This document shows positions 23,197 through 25,577 of a stretch of DNA of 64,000 nucleotides, one piece after another; position 1 is the stretch's first letter, and the number at the start of each line of letters is the position of its first letter. Origin of the DNA: Clostridia bacterium (GTDB lineage: Bacteria > Bacillota > Clostridia > Oscillospirales > CAG-272); assembly GCA_017503325.1 (NCBI GenBank), contig JAFVTI010000018.1, forward strand, positions 62,001-126,000. Reading direction: 5' to 3'. The notes under the pieces were generated by a model. The model ran no database searches. It saw only the letters and a program-made list of their open reading frames with translations, and was not told where the DNA came from. Position numbers and translations under genes: made by a program.

Positions 23197-24225
23197 TTAC
23201 AGCTGCTCTGCCATCTCGAGGATCAGCCGCTCGGTCTTGTCCCAGCCAAGGCAGGGGTCGGTAATCGACTTACCGTAGCAGCCTTCGCCGATCTTCTGTG
23301 CGCCGTCCTCGATATAGCTTTCGATCATAAGTCCCTTGACAAGGCCCTTGATGTGCTCGGAATGGCGGCAGGAGTGCAGGATCTCCTTGGCAATGCGCAC
23401 CTGTTCTGCCCACTTCTTACCCGAATTTGCATGGTTGGTATCCACCACAACTGCAGGCAGCTGCAAATCTCTCTTGGCGTACTCCTCATACAGATGCTCC
23501 AGATCCTCATAGTGGTAGTTGGGCAAGGACTGGCCGTGCTTGTTGACGTAGCCGCGCAGAATGGCGTGTGCGTAGGGGTTACCCTCGCTGACGACCTCCC
23601 AGCCTCTGTAAATGAAAGCATGGGAATGCTGTGCTGCCGTGATCGAGTTGAGCATGACCGAAATGTCACCGCTGGTGGGATTCTTCATACCTACGGGAAT
23701 ATCCAGGCCGCTGGCCACCAATCTGTGCTGCTGATTCTCCACGCTGCGCGCGCCGACTGCCACGTAGGAAAGCAGATCGGACAGGTAGCGGTGATTCTCG
23801 GGGTACAGCATCTCGTCCGCGGTGGAAAGCCCTGTCTCCTCCAGCACCTTCATATGCAAGGAACGGATTGCAATGATGCCCTTGAGCAGGTCGGGTGCAA
23901 CGTTGGGATCGGGCTGGTGCAGCATACCCTTATAGCCGTCGCCCACGGTTCTGGGCTTGTTGGTATATACGCGGGGAACGATCAGAATTTTCTCCTTGAC
24001 CTGCTCCTGCACGCGCGCCAGGCGGCCGATATAGTCAAGCACGGGTGCTTCGGAATCAGCCGAGCACGGGCCGATCACAAGCAGGAGCTTATCGTTTGTG
24101 CCGTCAAAAACACCCTTGATCTCGGCATCTCTTTGCGCCTTGACTGCGGCCAGCGCATCGGTCAAGGGGTACATCTGCTTGATGTCCTGCGGAACAGGAA
24201 GCTTTCTTTTGAAATTCATATTCAT
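23197..24225 (-). CDS. aroF: 3-deoxy-7-phosphoheptulonate synthase (DAHP synthase, type I)
   Basis: 342 aa from the ATG at 24225 (AAAGGAG upstream). First step of the shikimate pathway: phosphoenolpyruvate plus erythrose 4-phosphate give DAHP. The AroF/G/H signatures are clear: LLVIGPCSADSEAPVLDY, RVYTNKPRTVGDGYKGM, VGMKNPTSGDISVM and DTNHANSGK. The closest E. coli isozyme cannot be told from sequence alone, so the symbol is nominal. It follows pheA by 28 bp and shares its leader control. Confidence 0.95.
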   Translation of the reverse strand: MNMNFKRKLPVPQDIKQMYPLTDALAAVKAQRDAEIKGVFDGTNDKLLLVIGPCSADSEAPVLDYIGRLARVQEQVKEKILIVPRVYTNKPRTVGDGYKGMLHQPDPNVAPDLLKGIIAIRSLHMKVLEETGLSTADEMLYPENHRYLSDLLSYVAVGARSVENQQHRLVASGLDIPVGMKNPTSGDISVMLNSITAAQHSHAFIYRGWEVVSEGNPYAHAILRGYVNKHGQSLPNYHYEDLEHLYEEYAKRDLQLPAVVVDTNHANSGKKWAEQVRIAKEILHSCRHSEHIKGLVKGLMIESYIEDGAQKIGEGCYGKSITDPCLGWDKTERLILEMAEQL

Positions 24226-24253: not shown

Positions 24254-25342
24254 TTATGATTTGGTACTGTATGAGCCAACCAACTTGAGCTTATCGCACA
24301 TGGGTGCCAGGGCTCGCATCATTTGTTTGCCGTTTTCGCTGCGGATATCACCCTCGCACTCCACGTAGAAATAATAATTCCACGCAAGATCCTTCATGGG
24401 GCGGGAGTGCAGATTTTTCATATTATAGCCGTAAGCACCGATGATATTGATGGCCTGCGCCAGCGCGCCCGCCTGGTGCTTGACGGTAAATACCAGGATA
24501 AAGTTGTCGTCCGGCCTGCCCGCGGGTCGATTTTCCACGCGGGAGAAGCAAGCAAAGCGCGTGGTATTGCCTGCGCTTTGGTTGATACTGCGCTGCAGCA
24601 CCTCCAGTCCGTACAGCTGCGCCGCCTGCACGCTGCCGATGGCGGCGACGTGGGGCTTGCCAAGCTCTGCAACGAATTTTGCGGCAAGCGCGGTGTTGGA
24701 ATAGGGGGTGCGGACTCCGATCCCATGCTGGTCCAGATACCCTTCACATTGCGCAAGTGCCTGCGGATGGCTGACCACCTCGCAAATGTCCTCAAGCTTT
24801 GTGCCGGGCAGCACCAAAAGATTCTGCGTCACGGCAAGATCGCAGGTGCGGTTGATATACAAGGATCCCGAAAACATCAGATCCATGACCTGTCCGACCT
24901 CGCCGGCATAGCTGTTTTCAATGGGCAGCACGGCAACGTCGCACTCCCCCGCCTCCACGGCACGGTAAGCCGCTACGAAATCAGAGCAAGAAATATATTC
25001 TCCATTCGGATACAGCACCTCGGCTGCCTCGGATGCAAACGCGCCCGGCACACCGCCGTACGCCACGCGCATGCCGCCGATCAGTCTTTGCTGATAATCG
25101 CGCGACAGCTTCATGGTATATTTAAGGAAGTTCACGTAATACTCGCGCCACTCGGAATTTTCCACAAGCGCGCTGTTCTTTGCGATCAGCTCCTCCTCGC
25201 GTCGCGAGTCGAGAACGGCTAATCCTCTCTCCTTTTTATATTCAGCGACCGTCTCTGCAGCCTCCATGCGGCGGCAGAACAGCCTTGCGATCTCAGCATC
25301 AACCTCGGAGATCGTCTTTCTGGCCTGTTGCAGCTTGTCCAT
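24254..25342 (-). CDS. pheA: Bifunctional chorismate mutase / prephenate dehydratase
   Basis: 362 aa, three domains in the E. coli P-protein order: AroQ-type chorismate mutase (about 1-90), prephenate dehydratase (about 93-270, with SYAGEV and NTTRFACF) and a C-terminal ACT domain (about 280-355, KNLHSRPMKDLAWNYYFYVE) for phenylalanine feedback. Together with aroF it commits chorismate to phenylalanine. AAAGGAG precedes the ATG. Upstream lie a Phe/Tyr-rich leader peptide and terminator. Confidence 0.96.
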   Translation of the reverse strand: MDKLQQARKTISEVDAEIARLFCRRMEAAETVAEYKKERGLAVLDSRREEELIAKNSALVENSEWREYYVNFLKYTMKLSRDYQQRLIGGMRVAYGGVPGAFASEAAEVLYPNGEYISCSDFVAAYRAVEAGECDVAVLPIENSYAGEVGQVMDLMFSGSLYINRTCDLAVTQNLLVLPGTKLEDICEVVSHPQALAQCEGYLDQHGIGVRTPYSNTALAAKFVAELGKPHVAAIGSVQAAQLYGLEVLQRSINQSAGNTTRFACFSRVENRPAGRPDDNFILVFTVKHQAGALAQAINIIGAYGYNMKNLHSRPMKDLAWNYYFYVECEGDIRSENGKQMMRALAPMCDKLKLVGSYSTKS

Positions 25343-25366: not shown

Positions 25367-25395
25367 ATCGCAGAGGCTTTACGTGCATCTGCGAT
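25367..25395 (-). other. Second hairpin between attenuator and pheA
   Basis: ATCGCAGA (25367-25374) pairs with TCTGCGAT (25388-25395), 13-base loop, then ATTTTTATT on the minus strand. It immediately follows the attenuator T tract and may be a weak second terminator. Confidence 0.45.
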
Positions 25396-25429
25396 AAAAA
25401 AACGCAGAATGCCCCTCGGGCATTCTGCG
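25396..25429 (-). terminator. Attenuator terminator of pheA-aroF
   Basis: 12-bp perfect stem CGCAGAATGCCC / GGGCATTCTGCG (25418-25429, 25403-25414), 3-base loop, then seven T on the minus strand, all upstream of pheA. Part of the 5' arm can instead pair with the end of the leader peptide reading frame (25464-25472). Confidence 0.9.
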
Positions 25430-25452
25430 GCAAAATTCGATCTGTTTCAAAC

Positions 25453-25515
25453 TTACGCGGTCAAGAACACCCGGAAACCGAGAAAATAACCGCAATAAAA
25501 TCGTGTCTGCTTCAT
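25453..25515 (-). CDS. Phe/Tyr-rich leader peptide of the pheA attenuator
   Basis: 20 codons, MKQTRFYCGYFLGFRVFLTA, with a strong AAAGGAG site 8 bases before the ATG. Four Phe (6, 11, 14, 17) and two Tyr (7, 10) make 30% aromatic residues, like PheL of E. coli in logic though not in sequence. It lies between a consensus promoter and a terminator ahead of pheA. Slow decoding of its Phe/Tyr codons would relieve termination. The peptide itself probably has no function. Confidence 0.85.
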   Translation of the reverse strand: MKQTRFYCGYFLGFRVFLTA

Positions 25516-25548
25516 GTTATTGACTCCTTTCCCGATGAACTTATGATT

Positions 25549-25577
25549 ATTATAAACCCATTTTTTACGCTTGTCAA
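25549..25577 (-). promoter_or_regulatory. Promoter of the pheA-aroF operon
   Basis: Minus strand: consensus -35 TTGACA (25577-25572), 17-base spacer, consensus -10 TATAAT (25554-25549). The -35 overlaps the murQ stop codon. Confidence 0.93.

Follow-up and report, generated by a model that had tools for sequence, protein, structure and literature searches.

A probable leader-peptide attenuator of clostridial pheA-aroF with two terminators that may be coupled

The question raised by this locus is how transcription of pheA and aroF is controlled in a member of the Clostridia. Leader-peptide attenuation is a classical mechanism known mainly from enterobacteria, and it requires a ribosome close behind the RNA polymerase. 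T-boxes, which bind tRNA directly, sense its charging and control termination, are the rule in Bacillota, where amino-acid leader-peptide attenuators are sparsely documented. The window is the whole stretch of 64,000 nucleotides analysed here, and it comes from a MAG (G000). The elements run along the minus strand in the order promoter, leader ORF, T1, T2, pheA and aroF:

25577-25549, minus strand: promoter, with -35 TTGACA, a 17-bp spacer and -10 TATAAT, matching the consensus at 12 of 12 positions
25515-25453, minus strand: leader ORF, MKQTRFYCGYFLGFRVFLTA and a stop, 20 codons with four Phe and two Tyr, preceded by GGAAAGGAG
25473-25464, minus strand: s2, CGGGTGTTCT, in leader codons 15-18, forming 10 pairs with the T1 5' arm
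25473-25417, minus strand: predicted antiterminator hairpin from s2 to the T1 5' arm, -21.5 kcal/mol, z -3.9
25429-25403, minus strand: T1, intrinsic terminator of 12 bp with T7, -21.1 kcal/mol, z -6.6; 5' arm (a) 25429-25418, 3' arm (b) 25414-25403
25414-25385, minus strand: predicted relay helix b:c, the T1 3' arm with the T2 5' arm, an alternative to both terminators
25396-25366, minus strand: T2, second intrinsic terminator of 11 pairs with one mismatch, -14.4 kcal/mol, z -4.9 (-16.5 kcal/mol as c:e when compared with b:c); 5' arm (c) 25396-25385, 3' arm (e) 25377-25366
25342-24254, minus strand: pheA, bifunctional chorismate mutase / prephenate dehydratase; PF01817, PF00800 and TIGR01805 above cut-off
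24225-23197, minus strand: aroF, class I DAHP synthase of the AroFGH type; TIGR00034, PRK12755 and PF00793 above cut-off

All the parts named in a first-pass annotation of this DNA were found where it had placed them, including the consensus promoter, the 12-bp terminator with seven T (T1) and a 20-codon leader with a ribosome site, whose six Phe/Tyr residues resolve into Phe 6, 11, 14 and 17 and Tyr 7 and 10. Profile searches support the identities of pheA and aroF, the proposed target operon; the pheA product carries a type II chorismate mutase and a prephenate dehydratase domain, with an ACT match below threshold. The start of aroF is probably the ATG at 24225 rather than the listed TTG at 24279. 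The promoter overlaps the final codons of the upstream gene, which is MurQ-like as judged by eye. Four promoter-like sites occur in the 1.2 kb scanned, compared with 0.6 expected from shuffles, and similar -10 elements also precede the leaders of relatives.

The short ORF resembles the leaders of ribosome-mediated attenuators in being rich in codons for the products of the pathway, in its Shine-Dalgarno sequence and in its apparent conservation; the sister-species leader is MQKTRFYCGYFLGFRVFLTA. As expected of an attenuator, intrinsic terminators, T1 and T2, lie between the leader and the first gene. The pairing proposed earlier between GGGTGTTCT (25472-25464) and AGAATGCCC (25426-25418) stands as described, and the helix is extended by one C-G pair. 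The antiterminator as a whole is longer than had been noted, with all of 25473-25417 folding as one hairpin that was matched in stability by none of 200 shuffles. Comparisons of relatives showed that s2:a keeps 8-10 of 10 core pairs with compensatory changes (CGGGTGTTCT:AGAATGCCCG here, CCGGCGTTC:GAATGCCGG in L011 and GGCAcTCTGC:GCAGgATGCC in L021). The pairing energy within the own lineage ranked sixth of 120 permutations, a modest result from few lineages with the s2 register set by hand. Of 18 members, most have a stretch from s2 to a that exceeds its shuffles in stability (mean z -1.8); the antiterminator is weak or absent, no better than shuffles, in genera g12 and g29. An RNAduplex survey of the whole leader against the whole terminator arm at all loci was too noisy (mean z -0.9), and close relatives in fixed registers were compared instead. 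One centroid showed a classic 1:2 hairpin (GCGGTTA with TGACCGC), which was absent from the staged folds.

In the staged folding, the RNA was covered to 12 nt past the first base of the A-site codon and transcription was halted before b. Under these conditions, s2:a was predicted to form with the ribosome stalled at codon 6, 7, 10 or 11, but not with it at codon 14 or the stop codon. This agrees with the earlier proposal that a ribosome stalled at Phe6-Phe11 would free the strand and one at the stop would cover it. By footprint geometry, codons 6, 7, 10 and 11 are most likely the only control codons, because a stall at Phe14 or Phe17 would place the ribosome over the strand needed for antitermination. 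Prediction and covariation both point to a mutually exclusive antiterminator whose strand would be masked once the ribosome stands at the stop codon. Equilibrium folding showed that T1 wins in every ribosome state once b is available; thus, the choice of helix must be made kinetically, as it is in known attenuators. Antitermination is also predicted when the leader is not translated, in contrast to the textbook trp case.

The ribosome position, folding order and Phe/Tyr response that we infer for the attenuator are as follows. Scarcity of charged tRNA-Phe or tRNA-Tyr would stall the ribosome at leader codons 6-11, leaving s2 free to pair with a and block T1. The released 3' arm b would capture c and thereby block T2 too, and with both terminators lost the RNA polymerase would continue into pheA. 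With an ample supply of Phe and Tyr, the ribosome would run on to the stop codon and cover s2, whereupon T1 and T2 would form and transcription would stop. Control of pheA-aroF by leader-peptide attenuation is very probable, and the full model, a ribosome-mediated attenuator whose alternative helices follow one another as in a row of dominoes, is probable.

T2 sits between T1 and pheA, followed by TTTTTATTG and then directly by the pheA Shine-Dalgarno sequence. Thus, opening of T1 alone would be insufficient for expression of the operon. The first-pass annotation, supported in its attenuator, had overlooked both T2 and the helix coupling it to T1. In this genome, b:c is a bulged 9-pair version of -11.8 kcal/mol alone (z -4.2) and -12.6 kcal/mol in the comparison with c:e; its counterparts are CGTTTTCTGCG:CGCAGAAAACG in L021, GTCTTCTGCG:CGCAGAAGAC in L011 and CGGTTTCTGCG:TGCGGAAACCG in L186. 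Positions 8 and 9 of b:c show compensatory changes in five lineages across four genera, position 8 being T-A, G-C or A-T and position 9 G-C, G-U, A-U or C-G. At position 8, b fits c in all five lineages and fits a in one, the T1 pair being broken in the other four, indicating that b there tracks c rather than a. The own-lineage energy of b:c ranked second of 120 permutations, which is modest, and the covariation comes from few lineages with the T2 register set by hand, since the MAFFT alignment of T2 misaligned L001 and L033 with the other lineages. A second hairpin is found at the place of T2 in 16 of 16 strong relatives. In g12, T1 has no T tract and is at most a middle stem. The overall architecture is that of a his-type domino (B:C + D:E against C:D + E:F, with a final terminator), its pairings and compensatory changes being found in five lineages.

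The same attenuator could also operate with T2 as a fail-safe duplicate of T1, or as a leaky and unregulated terminator, b:c being a by-product of the CGCAGA/TCTGCG core. This core is common to T1 and T2, b resembles e, and T2 is the stabler structure in this genome (-16.5 for c:e against -12.6 for b:c), making the relay step less certain here; b:c is equal or stronger in most relatives of the group. However, the five lineages show covariation of b with c beyond the core, where b mismatches a, and a constitutive T2 would silence the operon. An uncoupled T2 is thus possible though doubtful, and the T1-T2 relay, in which one ribosome position would govern both terminators, is reasonably likely.

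Leaders of this kind recur in related genomes. Among 162 distinct pheA upstream regions gathered from related clostridial MAGs, 47 have an aromatic leader, defined as an ORF of 9-40 codons preceded by a Shine-Dalgarno sequence and with at least four F/Y in eight residues, compared with 0-5 (mean 2.6) in ten dinucleotide shuffles; MKYTYRFYYYYAAVRHSARA, MTDRTYFYTVRFYYYAPSSRRSGSAQ and MFKQYAYFYYFMSAMDRCIVPGLAK are examples. A stricter scan, for at least five of eight aromatic residues and a terminator up to 3.2 kb upstream, gave 55 of 164 loci against one on the opposite strand, and added leaders before other first operon genes such as aroF or an aminotransferase gene. Both scans combined give ~65 of 164 loci (~40%), counts that are inflated by relatedness, yet clearly different leader sequences recur in many genera. 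Conserved aromatic codons and alternative pairing in relatives, chosen beforehand as the test on which the proposal could fail, were thus both found. The locus had been singled out as a noteworthy clostridial example for Phe; no T-box lies at this pheA, and the locus is one of dozens rather than isolated. The closest named relative, Oscillospiraceae bacterium SIG620 (L033), has a pheA 84% identical and retains the leader and the structures.

Across 395 genomes of the family, a covariance model of the leader and T1 (R1) gave 16 matches with E <1e-5, distributed over genera g1, g12, g22, g29 and g42; all 16 fall on aromatic leaders with two hairpins between leader and gene. No further aromatic leader was found with R1 in 394 genomes drawn from the order outside the family. 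The weak matches examined (E 1e-5 to 1e-3) were chance terminators, except for one Met leader. No second convincing leader was found within the 64-kb window.

Several side observations concern the leaders themselves. An Arg codon (25503-25501) lies immediately before the aromatic run, as in 44 of 67 leaders, where shuffled peptides would give 9.8, and it is CGA in 25 of 47 such places; CGA is rare elsewhere, with five of 169 Arg codons in nine genes of the window. The Phe/Tyr codons of the leaders favour TTT/TAT (387 of 507), and this bias and the Arg counts are inflated by relatedness. In g22 (L182-L188, L005-L008), the same leader precedes a PLP aminotransferase gene, followed by pheA, and the wiring differs, the T1 5' arm pairing with the T2 3' arm and the T1 3' arm TTTTTTGCGGC with the T2 loop GCCGCAAAAAA. 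A second leader type, [AV]R[FY][FY]AG[FYW], occurs in L045, L048, L060, L069, L094, L106 and others with the terminator GCGGTTCTG...CAGAGCCGC; this leader showed no clear pairing to the 5' arm of its terminator. Met-rich leaders (MTICGFVMMMAMFMCGMMMMPRFVLPAGSSCRMG; MNGIRLNSCSMCSMMRAMRTMCMCMPIFSDDRRKTS; MRITRRMMEMMMQMRLMCMCMVISVLSAAVLIF) with a promoter, a Shine-Dalgarno sequence and a downstream terminator were seen in L220 (the same as L217), L221 and L237, which represent three further families within the order. They lie ~180-280 bases ahead of metN-like genes (three of 23 metN-like loci); the next ORF in L237 resembles a substrate-binding lipoprotein. These are apparently methionine attenuators.

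Motifs beyond the Phe/Tyr content, namely the Arg before the aromatic run in those 44 of 67 leaders and RFYxG[FYW] in 22, would fit a nascent leader peptide that senses free Phe or Tyr and arrests the ribosome as TnaC does with Trp, instead of stalling at hungry codons. However, the motif counts are inflated by relatedness, and the motifs of other leaders are quite different (YYFYYF..AMD), aromatic richness being the sole common point. Such a sensor is quite improbable, and stalling at hungry codons is retained in the model.

Control of pheA by a T-box or another metabolite riboswitch, with the small ORF incidental, would be in keeping with the abundance of T-boxes in this family, where they occur in 58 of 59 genomes and control pheS in the present one. 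Because the T-boxes of G000 reach 77-133 bits and most of them fall short of the cut-off of 93, E-value thresholds were used. No T-box (RF00230) was found at the pheA locus at E 0.01, whereas seven matches lie elsewhere in G000; by eye, the genes downstream are valS, pheS, tyrS (on two contigs), a trpB-like gene and two regulator-like genes. The two T-box-tyrS regions (C5:3014-3285 and C40:50288-50559; L210 and L211) are apparently identical, reflecting either a true duplication or assembly redundancy. An Rfam scan of the window and 20 leader loci at gathering scores, which included the enterobacterial leader families, gave no match. In G037 and G029, where T-boxes do occur near pheA, they stand in front of other genes upstream, and an aromatic leader is still present ahead of aroF in G037. 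As these searches contradict a riboswitch at pheA and the aromatic ORFs far exceed chance, this explanation is extremely improbable. A chance origin of the ORF amid unremarkable terminators belonging to the upstream gene, with pheA under no special regulation, is scarcely credible: despite the position of the promoter at the extreme end of that gene, the sister species and other genera retain the promoter, the leader, the antiterminator and both hairpins.

With attenuation at pheA as the preferred reading, the cell probably senses tRNA-Phe in two ways, through the pheA leader and the pheS T-box, and these two sensors can be compared side by side in one genome. On balance, it appears that a large group of gut and rumen Clostridia attenuates Phe/Tyr biosynthesis by means of the ribosome, with T-boxes at pheS and tyrS in the same genome and a relay of two terminators in this genus and its relatives. 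Attenuation at pheA would open transcription-translation coupling in these bacteria to direct tests. If true, coupling of the tandem terminators would provide a tighter off-state from a known principle.

The his attenuator of E. coli and Salmonella is said to have been described by Johnston et al. (1980; cited in PMC3896937) as helices A:B, C:D and E:F against B:C and D:E. The chain logic is the same here, with s2:a and b:c set against a:b and c:e. However, the middle stem a:b is itself a terminator with T7, the amino acid and the phylum are others, and no homology of the clostridial pheA leader to his leaders was found. In the enterobacterial pheL-pheA system, a Phe-rich leader peptide likewise directs an antiterminator/terminator choice before the same target, pheA; the clostridial leader differs in its mixed Phe/Tyr content and second coupled terminator, and neither an Rfam family match nor a sequence relation was seen. 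T-boxes, present in this genome at pheS and tyrS, resemble the attenuator in sensing tRNA charging and controlling termination, but bind tRNA directly, and none was found at pheA. In Bacilli, leader-peptide attenuators have been predicted for His before hisS/hisZ (PMC2965389), proposed with genetic support for Leu before the S. aureus ilv-leu operon (PMC5794164) and described for bmrB-bmrCD (PMC4191407). These are likewise ribosome-mediated outside Proteobacteria, and differ in their amino acids or antibiotics and in class. The uORFC-13-1 motif, a computationally proposed Phe-codon uORF at Acholeplasma aroF (PMC8632094), shares the Phe-codon uORF and a terminator before an aromatic-pathway gene, but belongs to another lineage, concerns aroF only, has few Phe codons and is described without a second terminator. 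No report of an aromatic leader-peptide attenuator at clostridial pheA was found in the open-licence literature. Thus, the class of mechanism is known, whereas the host group, its breadth and the apparent coupling of the two terminators are new.
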